Positions 20,901 to 29,530 of a stretch of DNA of 34,530 bases are shown one piece after another. Under the pieces are notes generated by a model. It saw only the letters and a program-made list of their open reading frames with translations. It was not told where the DNA came from and made no database searches. Made by a program: the position numbers and the translations under genes. The stretch spans positions 1-34,530 of the IMG/VR virus record IMGVR_UViG_3300030012_002147; one strand, 5' to 3'. Positions within the stretch are counted from its first letter, which is position 1. Every line of letters begins with the position of its first letter. Source of the stretch: a virus.

Positions 20901-21693
20901 TACAAATAAAGATGAGAAGACAAATTTTGGACAAAAGCAAGAAGCATTTAACTCTCGCTTTCGACAAATTATGGAACAAAAAAGAAAGGATAGAAAGAGC
21001 CGAATGGTTCTTGGTATTTGGGGAGAACCAAAGACAGGTAAAACTGGAATTGCTTTGGATTTTCCTGAACGTAAGATTTACGTTTTAGATTGGGATAGTG
21101 GAGTTGAATCTACATGGATTGAATGCCATGACGCAACAGAACGAATTGAAGTATTTGACCCAATTGTTCAAGACAAGGAAAATAAAATTGATATTACTGC
21201 ATCTGAACAAAACTCACATGATTTTATTCGTTATGTTCGAGGTCAAATTGAAAGTGGTGAAAAGCCTATCTTTGTGATGGATGGAGTAGATACATGGTTC
21301 AAGAAATGTATTTACAAGGTTAATCCGAATCCAACAGTTGTAACAAAAATGATGCCATTTCAATATGGTGCAAGAAACAAAACTTTCTATCATTTGCTTG
21401 AAGCAATCTTTAATCTAAAATGTGATGTAATTTTCATTACTCACGAAACTGAAAAGTTTGTAGATAATGTTGCTACTGGTATTCAACCTGCATGGAAGGA
21501 CTGGGGCGGAAAACTAGAACAAGAGATTCATTGTTCTAGGAGAAAGGTAAAGGGTGAAATACACTTTGTTGCTGAATTAATTGGTTCAAGAACTAATGGC
21601 AACTTAGTAGGAACACGCTGGACTATTCGACAAGGAACGCCACCAAATATCGTTTGGAACGGTATTCCTGAATTGCAGGAGGGAAAGATTTGA
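20884..21693 (+). CDS. RecA/RadA-like ATPase of the phage Sak4 type
   Basis: The protein has 269 residues, with ATG 20884 after GGTGATAGTT (GTG 20875 in frame). The RecA-core layout is visible: LGIWGEPKTGKTG (Walker A, 43-55), IYVLDWDSG (strand with the conserved Asp after the first helix), EKPIFVMDGVDTW (Walker B, Asp133), and CDVIFITHETEK (motif with the conserved His). Single-domain ATPases of this kind in phages (Sak4/AAA_24) assist recombination and annealing with the cognate SSB, and archaeal RadA is related. It lacks the N-terminal HhH domain of RadA. It is TTGA-coupled to PCNA and follows the probable SSB gene. Confidence 0.78.
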   Translation: MGITDNTNKDEKTNFGQKQEAFNSRFRQIMEQKRKDRKSRMVLGIWGEPKTGKTGIALDFPERKIYVLDWDSGVESTWIECHDATERIEVFDPIVQDKENKIDITASEQNSHDFIRYVRGQIESGEKPIFVMDGVDTWFKKCIYKVNPNPTVVTKMMPFQYGARNKTFYHLLEAIFNLKCDVIFITHETEKFVDNVATGIQPAWKDWGGKLEQEIHCSRRKVKGEIHFVAELIGSRTNGNLVGTRWTIRQGTPPNIVWNGIPELQEGKI

Positions 21694-22457
21694 AGTTCGC
21701 AGCAAACACAAAAGATATTACAGAAGCATTGGAAAGCATTCAAGGAAAAGGTAAATACCTAACTTCATCAGGGTTTTCTAGTAATTCAATGGGTACTTAT
21801 GTTTATATGAATTTAGAAGGCCGTATTCTTAATCTTTGGAATGGAGATGCAACCTTTGGAATGAATATTACATTACAAGTTTTAGGTGCAGAAGATGGAG
21901 AGTTTATTTGTGATACGCAAGTTATTCTACCATATCTCAAAAAGTTTGGAGATATGACTTTGTTTGAGGGAGAAGATTTTCTTAAGATTTCTTCTGATAA
22001 TAAAACTGCATCTGTTTCAAGGGTTGTTAATCATCCAAATATGACAGTATTGACTCGACTTAATACTATGCTTGAACATATTTCTTATGACGAAGGAATA
22101 GAAACCTTGCCTAAATTTGGTAGTTCTAATTTTGAAGGTGCTTTTACATTAGAACAATCAGTATTTGCAGATTGTATTTCATCTTGCGAATTAGCAAAGC
22201 ATGGTGCATATAAGTTGGATTATGATGGAACTTCCGTTGAGTTTTCAACGGGTTCTACTATTCAGAATAAATACAAAGAAACAATTACTCCTGACCAGAA
22301 TACAGGAGAACCTGCAACATTAGAATTTAGTGGGCCACTACATAAATTCTTTCCAAAGAAATCAAAAATTAATTTCTATGTGAAAGATGAGTTTCCGCTA
22401 CTTCTTGTTTCAGAAGATAGAAAATTAGTAAAAGCACCGTTCACATCGGGGAATTAA
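21690..22457 (+). CDS. pcn: DNA sliding clamp (PCNA)
   Basis: The protein has 255 residues. TTG 21690 overlaps the previous stop as TTGA, with GCAGGAGGGAAAGA giving good spacing. It forms a ring that tethers polymerase and other factors to DNA. The two-domain beta-rich pattern is clear: KFAANTKDITEALESI, GEFICDTQVILPYLKKFGDM in the first domain, FEGAFTLEQSVFADCISSCE in the second, ATLEFSGPLHKFFPKKSKI and a final strand DEFPLLLVSEDRKLVKAPF where PCNA has 'PL.i.......y.lAP'. The length fits archaeal PCNA (about 245-250). Clients in this window with PIP boxes are the PolB C-terminal half and the RFC-L-like protein. Confidence 0.86.
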   Translation: MKFAANTKDITEALESIQGKGKYLTSSGFSSNSMGTYVYMNLEGRILNLWNGDATFGMNITLQVLGAEDGEFICDTQVILPYLKKFGDMTLFEGEDFLKISSDNKTASVSRVVNHPNMTVLTRLNTMLEHISYDEGIETLPKFGSSNFEGAFTLEQSVFADCISSCELAKHGAYKLDYDGTSVEFSTGSTIQNKYKETITPDQNTGEPATLEFSGPLHKFFPKKSKINFYVKDEFPLLLVSEDRKLVKAPFTSGN

Positions 22458-22458
22458 A

Positions 22459-24114
22459 ATGATAATTAGTGCGTTAGATAATGGAAAAACAATTTATACT
22501 TCATGGAGAAACGGAAAAGAGAAGGTAGAACAGGTTATAAATTTTATACCTTATTTCTATATCTCAGTAAATTCAAAGCGACCAACTTCATACAAACCTT
22601 CAAAGTTTATTGAAAGGGATTTTGTCTATGAAGAAGGAGATTGGTATAATCTTGAAGGAACGAAACTTATTCGTGTATATGTTGAATCTGCTAAAGATAT
22701 TAAAATTGCAAAGAAGAGTTTTCTTCAAACATATGAAGCGGATGTTCCTTTAACATTTAGATACGCAGTAGACACTTTAGGTTCTTTGCCTGAATATAAA
22801 ATGCGTAAATGGTATTGGGATATGGAATGGCAACAAGGTGGACAATATCACGATTGTATTACTACTATTGTAATGTATGATAATTATGATGAAAGATACT
22901 ATCAGTGGGTGTGGTTTCCAGAAAATACTCAACCTAATCTTGCTGTAAATTTTGATACAACCTTTATCTTTGAAAATGAAAAAGATATGATTGAAAACTT
23001 TATGCAAACAATTCAAGAAAAAAATCCAGATATGCTTATTTCATGGTTTGGTAATTTTGCTGATGTTCCGAAACTACTTGAGCGAGCGTGTGCTTTGGGT
23101 CTGAATCCCTTAGTAATATCTCCTGTAAGCGAAGTAAGGGGTGTTGTATCAACGAAGAACGGTCATAAATTCCTTTACAGTGAAAAGGGGTTCGGGAGTA
23201 TCGAACAGCCCATCAAGGGGCGCATTACCCTCAATTTAGACATGGCCTTTGAACGTCAATGGAATGACTCACAAAGAGGTACTTTACCTTCATTGAGTTT
23301 AGATTATGTATCTGAATTAGTTCTTAATCGAAAGAAACTAGTTTCGGAAAAGTTTCCTGACCCTAACGAGTTTTATCGTAGGGCGTGGTTAGAAGATACT
23401 CAAACATATTTGAAGTATGCTTTGATTGATGTTGAACTAATGGTAGAATTGGATGAATTAAATTATTGTAGTGAAGCAATTATCGCACTACAAAGATTAT
23501 TGATTGCACCCTTTGATGCTTGTTTTTATGCTAGTCATATGGGTTCAATTTATTTTATGCGTAATGCTACATGGATTGCACCAACAGGTGAAAAGGTAGA
23601 GAAGCGTCAAGAATATGATGGTGCTATGATTTATGACCCATTAAGTGAAGGAACAAATGGATTGCATCTTAATGTTGCTGCTTTTGATTTTGCTGGTCTT
23701 TATCCCAGTATGATGATTGCTAGAAACATTTCATGGGAAACTAAATCAGAAAAACCAACAGAGTTTGGAGTAAATATCTTAACACCAAGAGATTTCAGTA
23801 TTACTGATAGAGAACAAATGCTCTATTATAAGACAGATGAATTGGGTCTTCTGCCAAGAGCAGTTCTTGAATTAAAAGAATTAAGAAATGAATACAAGCG
23901 TCTTATGAAAGAAGCAAGAGAGAATGATGATAAAAATGAATATGTCAAGTGGTATAACAATCAAATGGCAGTAAAGCGATTAATGGCCTCTTTTTATGGA
24001 ATTGTCGCTTTTCAAGGATTTGGTTGGGCTGATGTAGATTTAGCCGCTAGTATTACTGCTAGTGCAAGAGAAGCAATTCGTTTAGCCGCATTTAAAGCAA
24101 AGGAGATGGAATGA
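22459..24114 (+). CDS. polB: DNA polymerase B, N-terminal part (exonuclease, motifs A and B)
   Basis: The part has 551 residues. It carries the 3'-5' proofreading exonuclease: WYWDMEWQ (Exo I, Asp121/Glu123), DMLISWFGNFADVPKL (Exo II) and YLKYALIDVELMVEL (Exo III). It also has polymerase motif A FDFAGLYPSMM (Asp410) and motif B KRLMASFYG (506-514, with Ala where most enzymes have Asn). It stops at SAREAIRLAAFKAKEME, just before the catalytic motif C, which is encoded at 25412. If rejoined, KEME would run directly into KVVYGHTDS with nothing missing. The HNH gene starts immediately after the stop. The two parts presumably assemble as a heterodimer, as in Methanothermobacter PolB1/PolB2. Confidence 0.92.
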   Translation: MIISALDNGKTIYTSWRNGKEKVEQVINFIPYFYISVNSKRPTSYKPSKFIERDFVYEEGDWYNLEGTKLIRVYVESAKDIKIAKKSFLQTYEADVPLTFRYAVDTLGSLPEYKMRKWYWDMEWQQGGQYHDCITTIVMYDNYDERYYQWVWFPENTQPNLAVNFDTTFIFENEKDMIENFMQTIQEKNPDMLISWFGNFADVPKLLERACALGLNPLVISPVSEVRGVVSTKNGHKFLYSEKGFGSIEQPIKGRITLNLDMAFERQWNDSQRGTLPSLSLDYVSELVLNRKKLVSEKFPDPNEFYRRAWLEDTQTYLKYALIDVELMVELDELNYCSEAIIALQRLLIAPFDACFYASHMGSIYFMRNATWIAPTGEKVEKRQEYDGAMIYDPLSEGTNGLHLNVAAFDFAGLYPSMMIARNISWETKSEKPTEFGVNILTPRDFSITDREQMLYYKTDELGLLPRAVLELKELRNEYKRLMKEARENDDKNEYVKWYNNQMAVKRLMASFYGIVAFQGFGWADVDLAASITASAREAIRLAAFKAKEME

Positions 24115-24738
24115 ATGGGAAAAAGGTCAATACCAATCAAAAAAACGATATACAATTATTGGGAAAAAAGCCCACTAAAATCAGTTTTAAACGAGCAAGC
24201 GTTTGACGGAAATAACAATAGATGTATGGCTTGTGGTGCAGAAGCAAATATAGACCGAGCGCATATTGTTTCTCGATTTTATGGAGGTTCAAACAATCCA
24301 TCAAATATCCATTGTTTATGTCAAATTTGTCATAAATTAAGTGAAAATTTAGAAGGACATGATTATTGGTTATGGGTTGCCTTAAAATCAAAATTGTTTT
24401 CTTATGGAACAGATATGACATATGAAATGGATTACAAATCATCAAAAGACAAAACTCTTGTTCCGTATTATACGGAATTTGAATATCCTATTAAACTAAA
24501 GAAGTATTATAGAGAATATACACAACTATCTTTGCTTGAAGGGTGGACGGGAAGAAGTGCTTTATGTTACCTATATCTAGCAAGATGCTTACCTAATGAA
24601 TTGGATATAAGTTATCCTAACTTATCAGATATAGAAGAAGTTTTAGAATATAATTCAGAATTACATGATTATATTACTGTTATTAAAAAAGCAGAAGAGG
24701 TGATAAAATGGGAAGAAGTGCAGGAAATCACAGAATAA
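24115..24738 (+). CDS. HNH homing-type endonuclease inside the split polymerase
   Basis: The protein has 207 residues, with ATG 24115 directly after the PolB stop and AAGGAGATGG as the ribosome site. The HNH core lies at residues 37-73: CMACG, IDRAHIVSRFYGG (His50), NNPSNIHCLCQICHK (Asn64, His73), with two CxxC pairs holding a structural zinc. The remaining 130 residues are helical and probably give DNA specificity. HNH enzymes found freestanding in split genes usually cut the intact allele, spreading the insertion. Here the natural target would be an uninterrupted PolB gene at the motif B-C junction. Confidence 0.87.
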   Translation: MGKRSIPIKKTIYNYWEKSPLKSVLNEQAFDGNNNRCMACGAEANIDRAHIVSRFYGGSNNPSNIHCLCQICHKLSENLEGHDYWLWVALKSKLFSYGTDMTYEMDYKSSKDKTLVPYYTEFEYPIKLKKYYREYTQLSLLEGWTGRSALCYLYLARCLPNELDISYPNLSDIEEVLEYNSELHDYITVIKKAEEVIKWEEVQEITE

Positions 24739-24968
24739 AAAAGAAGTTGATTGAGTCACTAAAACAACTTGAAAACCCCGATGAATTCCAAATTAGCGAA
24801 ATAATCTCTTTTTATGAAAGAGAGCATGGGAGAACTTATAAAGTGAATCGCTTAACATCTCTTTTGAAGCCATACGCTTTCCCTGTTGGAAACAGGTCAA
24901 GAACAAGTCATTGGACAGTAAAAGGAAAATGGAGGCATATTTATGAAGAAGAAAATTGTAACAGTTGA
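24708..24968 (+). CDS. Possible winged-helix protein in the PolB insert (86 aa)
   Basis: ATG 24708 follows AGAGGTGATAAA and overlaps the HNH gene by 31 bases. A basic N-terminal helix is followed by EFQISEIISFYEREHGRTYK, VNRLTSLLKPY as a recognition-type helix and RSRTSHWTVKGKW as a wing. This fits a winged-helix DNA-binding fold. It could regulate transcription or partner the HNH enzyme. The layout is similar to the protein at 12236. Confidence 0.55.
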   Translation: MGRSAGNHRIKKKLIESLKQLENPDEFQISEIISFYEREHGRTYKVNRLTSLLKPYAFPVGNRSRTSHWTVKGKWRHIYEEENCNS

Positions 24969-25107
24969 AGTATCTTATGATACAGAAGAAACATGGGATA
25001 TTACTTTACAAGAAGTAAAAGAATTATTTCAGATGATGAACAATCTCAAAAGGAACGCTATTATTACAAGGATAAGTGAAGAGAATGATGATGGACAAAA
25101 CCAATGA
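24943..25107 (+). CDS. Small protein in the PolB insert (54 aa)
   Basis: ATG 24943 follows GGAGGCATATTT inside the end of the previous gene. The first half is a beta hairpin-like stretch (KKKIVTVEVSYDTEETWDIT), the rest a helix. It overlaps the next small gene. No family is recognised; support is the ribosome site and tight packing. Confidence 0.48.
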   Translation: MKKKIVTVEVSYDTEETWDITLQEVKELFQMMNNLKRNAIITRISEENDDGQNQ

Positions 25108-25216
25108 ACTTCTCGAAGAACTTCTTGCTATGATAGCAAAAAGCAATAAGATATTGATGATGGTAAATATCGTAAATATAATAACCATTATAACAATCGT
25201 AACGGTGATAGTATGA
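25088..25216 (+). CDS. Small membrane protein in the PolB insert (about 42 aa)
   Basis: ATG 25088 or the adjacent ATG 25091 follows AAGTGAAGAGA. TGA 25214-25216 overlaps the next ATG as ATGA. A polar helix (KTNELLEELLAMIAKSNK) is followed by a strongly hydrophobic C-terminal segment of about 20 residues (LMMVNIVNIITIITIVTVIV), a likely C-tail membrane anchor. The next gene encodes a coiled coil, so the two might act together. Function unknown. Confidence 0.48.
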   Translation: MMDKTNELLEELLAMIAKSNKILMMVNIVNIITIITIVTVIV

Positions 25217-25407
25217 GTAAAGAAATCAAAGAATTGAAAGCGGAAATAGCAAATCTAAAGCAAACAGTAAAGCGACTCGAAAATGAGTTGAATCTTCTCT
25301 ATGAAGAGAATACTACGTTTGTAGATTTATTAAAGGACATTAAAACAATCAAACAGGAATTGATGCAATACACTGATAATAAAATCTATTTTGAGAACGC
25401 ATGGTGA
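25213..25407 (+). CDS. Coiled-coil protein in the PolB insert (64 aa)
   Basis: It starts in an ATGA overlap. Residues 3-50 form a heptad-like coiled coil (EIKELKAEIANLKQTVKRLE and onward) and the C-terminus ends IYFENAW. The TGA lies inside the GGTGATACT ribosome site of the PolB C-terminal gene, so translation of the two is probably linked. No further homology is visible. Confidence 0.52.
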   Translation: MSKEIKELKAEIANLKQTVKRLENELNLLYEENTTFVDLLKDIKTIKQELMQYTDNKIYFENAW

Positions 25408-25411
25408 TACT

Positions 25412-26299
25412 ATGAAAGTAGTTTATGGGCATACAGATTCAATCTATGTTCAGATTGAATCTATTGAAAAGGCTGAATCATCAATCAAAGAGATTGAAGA
25501 ATCAGTCCGTGAACACTTTCCTAATGTATTGAATCTTGAACAACATCCTGTTGTTCTTGAATTTGAAAAGTATTTCTCAGCATTAGGTGTTGGTACAACA
25601 AAGAATAGAAATGCAGGTTTGGTATCTTGGGAGGATGGAGTTTGGCTCGATGAACCTAAATTCACAATGACTGGCTTTACTGCAAAGCGAGTTAGTGAAA
25701 CTAAACTTGCAAAAGAGGTACAAACAAATGTACTGAAAATGTGGGTAGAACAAAGAGATATGAAAGAAATTAACAAATACTTACATAAAAAGTACAATGA
25801 CGTCATCAATGGTAAAATCGAAAACAAAGAGATTATCAAGAGAAGTCGATTGCGTAAAGAAAGATTTGAGGTTAAATGCCCAGAATGCAGAAAGCAACAT
25901 CATTTAACTGAGTGTCTTAAAATTAAATGGTGCGATAAATGTGGAACTGAAACCAAATTCTTCTTAACAACTAAATACAAGAAACCCACAATCGGTTCGG
26001 GTATCGCAGGGGTTCTGTATGCTTGGGAAAAAGAAGATAAAACCTTTGATGATTCATATTTGTTTATGAAAGTACAAGGCGTTAATGATACTTATACGCA
26101 TCCTCTCACGAAGGAAAAAAGAGAAGTAGAGTTTGTTTCGGGAACCGTTTATGAAGATTTTAATAATTATATTCCCAACTATAAACACTACGCAGAAGAA
26201 GTGATAAACAAAGCAAAGCCTATTTACAAGGCGATGGAATGGGACATTTCTTCAATACGAACAGGAAAACTACAAATGAAATTAGACGAATGGTGGTAA
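25412..26299 (+). CDS. polB: DNA polymerase B, C-terminal part (motif C, thumb, PIP box)
   Basis: The part has 295 residues. ATG 25412 follows GGTGATACT; TTG 25391 is in frame but lies inside the upstream gene. It opens with motif C, VVYGHTDSIYV, where His7 replaces the first Asp of the usual DTDS while Asp9 is kept. KNRNAGLVSW follows, the KxY-type motif before the thumb. A zinc ribbon (Cys156, 159, 174, 177) interrupts the thumb, which most family B polymerases lack. The C-terminus QMKLDEWW (288-295) is a canonical PIP box for PCNA. Polymerase activity needs this part plus the protein at 22459. Confidence 0.9.
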   Translation: MKVVYGHTDSIYVQIESIEKAESSIKEIEESVREHFPNVLNLEQHPVVLEFEKYFSALGVGTTKNRNAGLVSWEDGVWLDEPKFTMTGFTAKRVSETKLAKEVQTNVLKMWVEQRDMKEINKYLHKKYNDVINGKIENKEIIKRSRLRKERFEVKCPECRKQHHLTECLKIKWCDKCGTETKFFLTTKYKKPTIGSGIAGVLYAWEKEDKTFDDSYLFMKVQGVNDTYTHPLTKEKREVEFVSGTVYEDFNNYIPNYKHYAEEVINKAKPIYKAMEWDISSIRTGKLQMKLDEWW

Positions 26300-27893: not shown

Positions 27894-28848
27894 TTATATT
27901 CAATTCGTCAAAGATTACAACAATAAGATGAATGTATATACAACTGTATATGATTTTAAGCATTTTAGTGAAACAGCACCAATTGATTCTTCTGTAATTA
28001 GAAACAGAATATTCTTAGACTTTGATGGACATAATGATGACCTTGACAAAGCATACCGTGATGTTAAAATAATTATGAACTGGGTTATGGAGAATGACAT
28101 CATGCATACTTTATTCTTTTCTGGAAGAGGTTTTCATTTATTTTTAGATGGTGAAGAAACTCAGGACATTCGAGATATACAGGCTTATTTTAAAGTTATC
28201 AAAAATATCTTAAAAGAAAAAGTAGGCGATGATAATACATTAGATGATAGGGTTGGACAAATTACTCGTTTAAGGAGAGTTCCGAATACTGTTAATATGT
28301 CATCTTCAGATAAGAATGGTAACTCTCTTTTCTGCATTCCTTTGTTATATGATGACCTTAATTTAAGTCTTGAAGATATTATTTTGTTAGCATCTAAACC
28401 TAGAAGTATTCCTTTCAGAAAGGTCGGCAATACAAAGGTCAAGTTTCCCGAACAACCCCCCATTGAAGCGGTTGAAGGGGAAGTTAGCGTACCGTTCTAT
28501 GAAGGAAAACTTCCAATGTTGCCGTGTTTGCATAACGCAGTAATGACGGAGAATCCTTCACATTTAGCGAGAGCATATCTTGTATCTTGGTATCGAGATT
28601 TATTGACTTTGCGAACTAATCTTACTTCATTGGAAGAAAAGAATAAAGTTTTAGATATGGTTGTTGAAGAGATTAAATCTATTGCTGAAAATAATGATGA
28701 AGTCTGGTTAGACTGGGATGAAGGACAAACACGCAAACATGCACGTTTTACGGTGCATGGTAATTACAAAACTCCTTCTTGTGATAAACTTATTTCAGAA
28801 GGATATTGCATAGGTAAATGTTGGAGGTTTCCAAATGTTGATAATTGA
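27808..28848 (+). CDS. Archaeo-eukaryotic primase, PriS-like core fused to PriL-like Cys domain
   Basis: The protein has 346 residues, with ATG 27808 after GGAGGGATAAATA. The N-terminal AEP catalytic core has RIFLDFDGH (Asp71, Asp73, metal ligands) and FFSGRGFHLFL (105-113, the SxGRGxH motif with His110). TRLRRVPNTVN is the third conserved segment. The C-terminus resembles the iron-sulfur domain of the large primase subunit PriL: MLPCLHNAV (Cys240), PSHLARAYLVSWY, and TPSCDKLISEGYCIGKCW (Cys325, 334, 338). In cells these lie on two proteins. It makes primers for the split PolB. The order with the helicase and nuclease genes suggests one replication transcript. Confidence 0.87.
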   Translation: MKFPRAVWAGSHLKNARQMKRRIVLTKNDYIQFVKDYNNKMNVYTTVYDFKHFSETAPIDSSVIRNRIFLDFDGHNDDLDKAYRDVKIIMNWVMENDIMHTLFFSGRGFHLFLDGEETQDIRDIQAYFKVIKNILKEKVGDDNTLDDRVGQITRLRRVPNTVNMSSSDKNGNSLFCIPLLYDDLNLSLEDIILLASKPRSIPFRKVGNTKVKFPEQPPIEAVEGEVSVPFYEGKLPMLPCLHNAVMTENPSHLARAYLVSWYRDLLTLRTNLTSLEEKNKVLDMVVEEIKSIAENNDEVWLDWDEGQTRKHARFTVHGNYKTPSCDKLISEGYCIGKCWRFPNVDN

Positions 28849-29530
28849 TAGTAGAGAAAAAGAAGGTTCTAAGTTAGTGAAACTAGTTGAAGAACGGGCA
28901 AGAATTCTAAACATACCAACGGAAAAGAAGTGGTTAGAAATAGGAGATTATGTCTTTTCTGACGTATGTTTTGAAGCAAAATCTGTTGTAGATTTTATTG
29001 GGTCTGTAATGTCTAAAAGACTTTGGACTCAATTAGATAATATGGATAGGCATTACAAGAACAATGTTGTAATTATCTATGGAGATTTATCGGAAGGAAT
29101 ATACAATATTATTGAACACAGTAAAAGTAAATTACCTATCGCTTCTAGAAAGATTATGTTATCAAATAAATTTCTAGGAGCAATAGGTAGAATTGTATTA
29201 GACACAGATATAAAACCCTTTTGGGTAAAGAGCGAAGATGAAGCATCATTGATAATTACAGCGATTTGTAAAATGCAACCAATAGAAAGAGAAGTTATAA
29301 GACCACAAGTATTTAAGAGAATAAGCACCGACGATTTAAGACTTGATATTTTAACTAGCATCAAAGGCGTATCCTATAAAAAAGCAAAGGTATTAATTGA
29401 TACCTTTGGGTCTGTTATGGAAATAGGAGAACAAACTAGTTTTGACATACAGAAACTAGATGGGTTTGGAAAGGTATTAGCAGACAGAATACTTAATGTA
29501 TTAAATTCAGAAGATAAGGTGAAACTATGA
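28835..29530 (+). CDS. XPF/ERCC4-type structure-specific nuclease with HhH domain
   Basis: The protein has 231 residues. ATG 28835 overlaps the primase end by 14 bases. The ERCC4 nuclease core reads IIDSREK, EIGDYVFSDVCFEAKSVVDF (Asp38, Glu47, Lys49; FEAK in place of the common VERK) and KRLWTQLDNM. The C-terminal region (about 165-225) holds two helix-hairpin-helix motifs (LTSIKGVSYKKAKVLIDTFG and LDGFGKVLADRIL). It matches archaeal XPF/Hef nucleases without the helicase part. These enzymes cut flaps and fork structures and often bind PCNA. No PIP box is seen at its end. Confidence 0.92.
   Translation: MLIIDSREKEGSKLVKLVEERARILNIPTEKKWLEIGDYVFSDVCFEAKSVVDFIGSVMSKRLWTQLDNMDRHYKNNVVIIYGDLSEGIYNIIEHSKSKLPIASRKIMLSNKFLGAIGRIVLDTDIKPFWVKSEDEASLIITAICKMQPIEREVIRPQVFKRISTDDLRLDILTSIKGVSYKKAKVLIDTFGSVMEIGEQTSFDIQKLDGFGKVLADRILNVLNSEDKVKL

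Follow-up and report, generated by a model that had tools for sequence, protein, structure and literature searches.

The window analysed here is a stretch of 34,530 nucleotides (nt; positions 1 to 34,530 of IMG/VR virus record IMGVR_UViG_3300030012_002147) in which the family B DNA polymerase (PolB) is encoded by two genes, PolB-N and PolB-C, with an HNH endonuclease gene lying between them. We consider it very probable that PolB of these magrovirus-like viruses is made as two noncovalently associated chains, that the genes descend from a single ancestral split, and that the HNH gene is a late arrival.

A polymerase divided between motifs B and C

The two polymerase genes lie in different reading frames, and 1297 nt separate the stop codon of PolB-N from the ATG of PolB-C (Table 1). 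A search of the complete 43.4-kb record with the Pfam profile PF00136 returned only two matches, one on each polymerase half. The profile PHROG 262, which represents full-length PolB in 856 positions, is matched by PolB-N over positions 15–560 and by PolB-C over positions 574–716. A first-pass annotation made from the sequence alone had placed the break between motifs B and C, with a first part ending in KAKEME, a second part beginning with MKVVYGHTDS, and about 1.3 kb between them that contain the HNH gene and four small open reading frames (ORFs). Both termini can be read directly in the window, and the remaining points agree with our findings, the small ORFs encoding 86, 54, 41, and 64 amino acids. 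The additional claim that the joined parts lack no residues is accurate to about one residue but not exactly; in a hand alignment, the joined halves are one residue shorter than an intact halovirus PolB (...TLTGQAVIKRTAKHVNEETVANVAYGDTDS). Relatives in which PolB-N ends in KAKEMEV or KAKEMKIDE supply the residue missing at the seam, and many have one to three extra residues at this point.

The proposal that the two halves are translated separately was upheld. The conserved start of PolB-C is the ATG at 25412; the TTG at 25391 that appears in the ORF list is not a conserved start. Complementarity of at least 4 nt to the Shine-Dalgarno (SD) sequence precedes 94% of PolB-C starts among the relatives described below, compared to 35% of random places. 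No second, intact polB was found either in the virus's own 43.4-kb record or in 16 records of relatives ranging from 78 to 185 kb, which carry only split copies.

The genome encodes a ribonucleotide reductase, a GroEL-like chaperonin, a ligase, a clamp loader, a Cas4-like nuclease, and tRNA-Arg(TCT). The gene set of Magrovirales (PolB parts, RFC, ligase, chaperonin, and tRNA-Arg) is present, a fit that applies at the level of the order only. Judged by its genes, the virus looks like a magrovirus-like virus of marine archaea. The protein encoded directly upstream of PolB-N has no match in Pfam or PHROGs; gene order and sequence suggest that it is the sliding clamp PCNA.

The split is shared by all relatives examined

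We searched IMG/VR with both halves and recovered loci down to ~56% identity for PolB-N and ~39–50% for PolB-C. The final census comprised 198 distinct PolB-N 3′ ends, 161 of which have PolB-C on the same locus, and not one fused allele was found among them. The break occurs at the same point throughout the census, and the gap between the halves ranges from −4 to 2392 nt. In the 150 distinct alleles with both halves, none of them fused, the end of PolB-N is no more than a few residues away from KAKEM, VREL, or VMEL, and PolB-C almost always opens with one and the same residue. PolB-C begins with ATG in 153 of the 161 alleles, with TTG in five, with GTG in two, and with ATC in one; thus, 160 of 161 have ATG, TTG, or GTG at this residue. 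A junction pattern that excluded ATG before KVVYGHTDS, and was thereby aimed at intact genes, matched 15 loci, all of which are split and use GTG or TTG starts. The variant pattern YGDTDS matched only two contigs of ~245 kb each in the scan of viral contigs. The first-pass annotation had recommended a search for uninterrupted alleles in related viruses; this search found none, and intact PolB was encountered only in remote viruses with ~25% identity.

Four alleles contain no insert at all (L259/L333, L266/L329, L288, and L330). Their stop and start codons overlap by 4 nt (ATGA), and the two halves are in different frames. A tree built from both halves (136 tips) revealed that the split is found in both of its deep halves. 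The root of this tree is not trustworthy, since it was placed with only two distant haloviruses on a very long branch; cyanophage PolBs were left out because they do not match the motif pattern. In this tree, insert-free L288 is the sister of L298, whose gap measures 361 nt, which indicates that the content of the gap turns over quickly while the split persists.

A genome scan identified one relative, L204 (NZMJ01000151.1), a contig in a Maricaulis metagenome-assembled genome that contains both halves and a 180-nt gap. The inclusion of this viral contig in that assembly is probably a binning error. The 184.7-kb IMG/VR record 3300021958_000021, which contains locus L037, carries two different split PolB pairs; its length is twice that of the usual genome, which may point to a joined or chimeric assembly.

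Catalytic residues are distributed over two chains

Further analysis of 136 alleles revealed that Exo I, II, and III, motif A Asp410, motif B Lys506, Tyr513, and Gly514, and the motif C aspartate are invariant. The catalytic residues expected of a family B polymerase are present in the exonuclease and in motifs A, B, and C, save for two family-wide substitutions: the motif B asparagine (window 23986–23988) is replaced by alanine in 135 of 136 alleles and the first motif C aspartate (window 25430–25432) by histidine in all 136. The haloviruses keep the usual residue at both positions. The set of exonuclease residues is complete on PolB-N. Both genes are under purifying selection, the ratio of nonsynonymous to synonymous substitution rates (dN/dS) being 0.13–0.21 for PolB-N and 0.03–0.14 for PolB-C.

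In family B polymerases, the aspartates of motifs A and C jointly bind the catalytic metals. These residues reside on separate chains here, and polymerization would therefore require both proteins. With the catalytic aspartates divided between two chains and invariant in 136 alleles, a working PolB-N/PolB-C heterodimer is very likely; the first-pass annotation had reached the same view, and the purifying selection on both genes speaks for it as well. In the model that we propose, PolB-N (exonuclease, motif A, and fingers with motif B) and PolB-C (motif C, the rest of the palm, thumb, and a tail that binds PCNA) would assemble noncovalently, the palm would form at their interface, and neither half would polymerize alone. 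A sequence of the form Q..[LIM]..aa (aa, two aromatic residues) occupies the extreme end of PolB-C in 122 of 136 proteins. This placement of the predicted PCNA-interacting (PIP) box suggests that the pair can be held on the sliding clamp through PolB-C.

Structure models were built for each half alone from alignments of 15 sequences. The exonuclease of PolB-N and the thumb of PolB-C were modeled with confidence, the palm was modeled poorly in both halves, and both models match the same archaeal PolB structures. These single-chain models fit a palm formed from both halves but are suggestive only. The thumb of PolB-C also contains a cysteine-rich stretch that resembles a zinc finger (CPEC...CDKC; window 25877–25952), the first two cysteines of which are present in 134 of 136 alleles.

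The HNH gene is mobile and sporadic

The product of the HNH gene matches HNH families of PHROGs (best E value 3.1e-8). In Pfam, HNH_5 falls slightly below its cut-off and PF01844 slightly above in a six-frame search. The gene lies between the PolB-N stop codon and the next small gene, outside any intact polymerase gene and outside any intron or intein. In L009, the nearest relative of the window (flanks ~95% identical), the site is empty and the 86-amino acid gene follows PolB-N directly. Relatives that are ~95% identical around the HNH gene lack that block only. The window, L090, and L092 carry the gene at this site. Between the window and L090, the HNH genes share 97–99% of nucleotides and 96% of amino acids, whereas flanking genes are mostly 62–90% identical; protein identities are 80% for PolB-N, 79% for PolB-C, and 65% for the upstream gene. 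Synonymous divergence (dS) is 0.10 for HNH compared to 0.81–1.05 for PolB-N, PolB-C, and the upstream gene, and L092 repeats the pattern of L090.

The first-pass annotation had taken the gene between the halves for an HNH endonuclease of the homing type, an assignment borne out by these profile matches, by the presence or absence of the gene at one site, and by its divergence, which is far lower than that of its flanks. The gene behaves like a free-standing homing endonuclease, and its distribution suggests that cleavage of empty alleles is how it moves. When the HNH protein was used as a query, close copies turned up at the polB junction only, where relatives of the window HNH occupy about seven alleles. 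We propose that the gene spread horizontally among these viruses, inserted between the polB-N stop codon and the next gene, and would use the GGAG in the polB-N tail as its ribosome-binding site.

Other nucleases also occur directly after the PolB-N stop codon. They include a second HNH-like family (L006/L134 and L059/L182), single other HNH proteins, and a MUG113/T5orf172 protein in L020/L145 and L128 that we take to be GIY-YIG-like. The second HNH-like protein of L182 ends in KAKEMEV and the T5orf172 protein of L145 in KAKEMKE, both copies of the polB-N tail; in L145, the string AAGCAAAGGAG is found at both ends of the nuclease gene. Unrelated nucleases thus carry copies of this tail, as if each insertion had duplicated the tail together with its GGAG. 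Since this GGAG would serve the next gene, an insertion that duplicates the tail would leave its neighbor translatable. Elsewhere in the window, the C terminus of a 231-amino acid protein (28835–29530) is weakly matched by an HNH family of PHROGs (E value 7e-4).

Origin of the split

The presence of the split in relatives without the HNH gene, together with the four insert-free alleles, indicates that the split is older than the HNH gene and independent of it. The universality of the break makes a single origin, ahead of the diversification of the family, most likely. Small viral genes and free-standing endonuclease genes of several unrelated types would subsequently have been tolerated in the space between the two polB genes.

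Several considerations weigh against this interpretation. The nearest intact PolB is only ~25% identical, so that the order of events at the root cannot be read from it, and the first split may have been due to an insertion that was lost afterwards. The insert-free alleles are nested among insert-bearing alleles and may be derived. Conservation of motifs A and B also raises the identity of PolB-N near the HNH gene, and a co-conversion tract cannot be separated from this effect. Finally, the poor confidence of the modeled palm may be partly technical, given the small alignments.

An alternative, limited to the origin and not at odds with a two-chain polymerase and a late HNH gene, holds that an older mobile element (an endonuclease, intron, or intein) split the ancestral polB and was later lost or replaced. 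Several types of nuclease still visit the polB junction, as its successors might. Phage MIJ3 combines a split PolB with a split intein and an HNH gene (PMC6892783), and the split PolB of Methanobacteriales has been attributed, as a proposal, to the erratic excision of an intein (PMC4104785). However, intein remnants are absent from the N ends and C starts of the alleles. The YxDTD intein site, moreover, is located a few residues downstream of the break. A plain overlap of stop and start codons, as in L288, yields the same split without any element. We regard an older element as a serious possibility, albeit one that we would bet against. A gene fractured by a split intein was rejected, as PolB-N terminates no more than a few codons from its conserved end and PolB-C opens directly with the motif C strand.

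One may also speculate that the two-chain polymerase was itself selected for, the divided palm regulating or suiting replication, that the whole lineage for this reason retains an active site shared by two chains even where the genes overlap with no insert left, and that the junction became a safe harbor for replaceable accessory genes and rival homing endonucleases. We put this idea forward tentatively and think it rather unlikely.

The first-pass annotation had described a polymerase split by the HNH-containing insert, as mobE split nrdA in Aeh1. The HNH gene does begin at the first base past the polB-N stop codon, and phage genes split by free-standing HNH genes are on record (PMC2988022). 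This description did not survive comparison with relatives: every one examined is split, nearly all without this HNH gene and four without any insert, and in the closest relative polB-N is followed by the 86-amino acid gene. A split caused by this HNH gene in this lineage is consequently very improbable. Decay of one or both halves, with use of a host polymerase, is scarcely credible; the two family-wide substitutions in motifs B and C would fit it, but the other catalytic residues are invariant, dN/dS is well below 1 in both genes, and genes for a clamp loader, a ligase, and a nuclease lie nearby. We give almost no credence to removal of the gap as a self-splicing intron that would yield a single chain: although the annotation of gene 43B in Aeromonas phage 25 includes a group IA2 intron, no Rfam intron was found in the gap at the gathering cut-off or at E values up to 5, gap contents vary among alleles, insert-free alleles have nothing to splice and their frames differ, and PolB-C has its own start and SD sequence in nearly all alleles.

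Comparison with known split polymerases

The Methanobacteriales are the nearest cellular case. Their PolB is broken between motifs B and C, and its two genes are widely separated in the host genome. PolB1 and PolB2 of this order represent an archaeal PolB encoded by two genes (Kelman 1999, cited in PMC4104785). The first-pass annotation had likened the break in the window to that of Methanothermobacter PolB1/PolB2, a similarity that may hold. Among viruses, a split PolB is not new in itself. The map in the Aoguangviridae (magrovirus) profile of the International Committee on Taxonomy of Viruses is labeled PolB-NTD and PolB-CTD, and its legend includes an "endo" gene (PMC10768690). These marine archaeal viruses resemble the window virus in having a split PolB, endo, PCNA, RFC, and GroEL (PMC10768690); as the profile gives gene labels only, the likeness is one of labels and not of sequence at the split site. 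We found no text discussing the split in Aoguangviridae PolB, although earlier discussion may have been missed.

The viral parallel studied in most detail is found in Aeromonas phages 44RR2.8t and 25, whose PolB is likewise encoded by two genes, and the parts, gp43A and gp43B, copurify with polymerase activity (PMC2988022). Phage 25 also has a nuclease between the parts, the free-standing seg43 endonuclease, and a review considers that the gene may already have been split when this nuclease invaded it (PMC2988022). The two systems differ in that the 44RR break lies upstream of motif B (gp43B starts MELELFRDFN...NSLYG), whereas the break in the window falls between motifs B and C; the nuclease is of the Seg (GIY-YIG) type in phage 25 and HNH in the window. 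Pseudomonas phage MIJ3 has an HNH gene between two PolB genes, as in the window, but carries intein halves (PMC6892783) that are absent from the window virus. MobE-type HNH genes of T4 and Aeh1 (PMC2988022) share with the window HNH a location outside introns at a gene boundary, translation tied to the end of the upstream gene, patchy distribution, and mobility. The parallel with Aeh1 drawn in the first-pass annotation fits the nuclease but not the origin of the split; insertion of mobE split nrdA, whereas polB was split before the HNH gene arrived.

The split replicative polymerases known so far are isolated cases; in this large group of ocean viruses, the split is apparently fixed. The chief interest lies in the size and uniformity of the allele set and in the insert-free alleles. 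About 200 natural variants of one junction constitute a data set on a catalytic palm built from two chains and, at the same time, on homing endonucleases that take advantage of gene fissions instead of causing them. In these viruses, an annotation pipeline built around a single PolB gene will cut that gene short or label it as broken.

Small genes in the gap

Table 1 Features at and around the polymerase locus of the window.
Feature	Coordinates	Strand	Remarks
Gene directly upstream of polB-N	21690..22457	+	Putative sliding clamp (PCNA)
PolB-N	22459..24114	+	551 amino acids; ends ...FKAKEME followed by TGA, just ahead of the motif C strand; Exo I–III, motifs A and B; PF00136 and PF03104 above cut-off, PHROG 262 positions 15–560
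polB-N 3′ tail, AAAGCAAAGGAGATGGAATGA	24092..24114	+	Includes SD-like GGAG for the next gene; tail conserved in relatives
HNH endonuclease gene	24115..24738	+	Begins at first base after polB-N stop, same frame as polB-N; sporadic, horizontally mobile
86-amino acid ORF	24708..24968	+	25 of ~150 alleles; first gene after polB-N at empty sites; dN/dS 0.13–0.24 versus near relatives
54-amino acid ORF, gap core	24943..25107	+	Cluster in 81 of ~150 alleles
41-amino acid hydrophobic ORF, gap core	25091..25216	+	Probable membrane protein; 85 of ~150 alleles; other in-frame starts 25085 and 25088
64-amino acid coiled-coil-like ORF, gap core	25213..25407	+	81 of ~150 alleles; dN/dS 0.03–0.15 versus near relatives
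SD-like GGTGAT	25403..25408	+	Three bases before the PolB-C ATG
PolB-C	25412..26299	+	MKVVYGHTDS...; motif C (YGHTDS), remaining palm, thumb; PF00136 above cut-off
PIP box QMKLDEWW (predicted PCNA-interacting)	26273..26296	+	C-terminus of PolB-C

In the three core ORFs (54, 41, and 64 amino acids), third codon positions are the most variable and dN/dS is mostly below 0.4, which indicates that they are genes. The 41-amino acid ORF (25085–25216 with its longest start) is nearly unchanged at synonymous positions, with a dS of 0 against L090 and 0.08 against L030; the corresponding value for polB is ~0.8. This constancy may reflect a hidden second signal or a recombination tract. In L272, a contig of an archaeal tailed virus, the stretch at offsets 620–965 past the PolB-N stop codon encodes a 114-amino acid protein that matches PF02407 (Viral_Rep; E value 4.4e-17), the HUH replication protein domain of small circular single-stranded DNA viruses.

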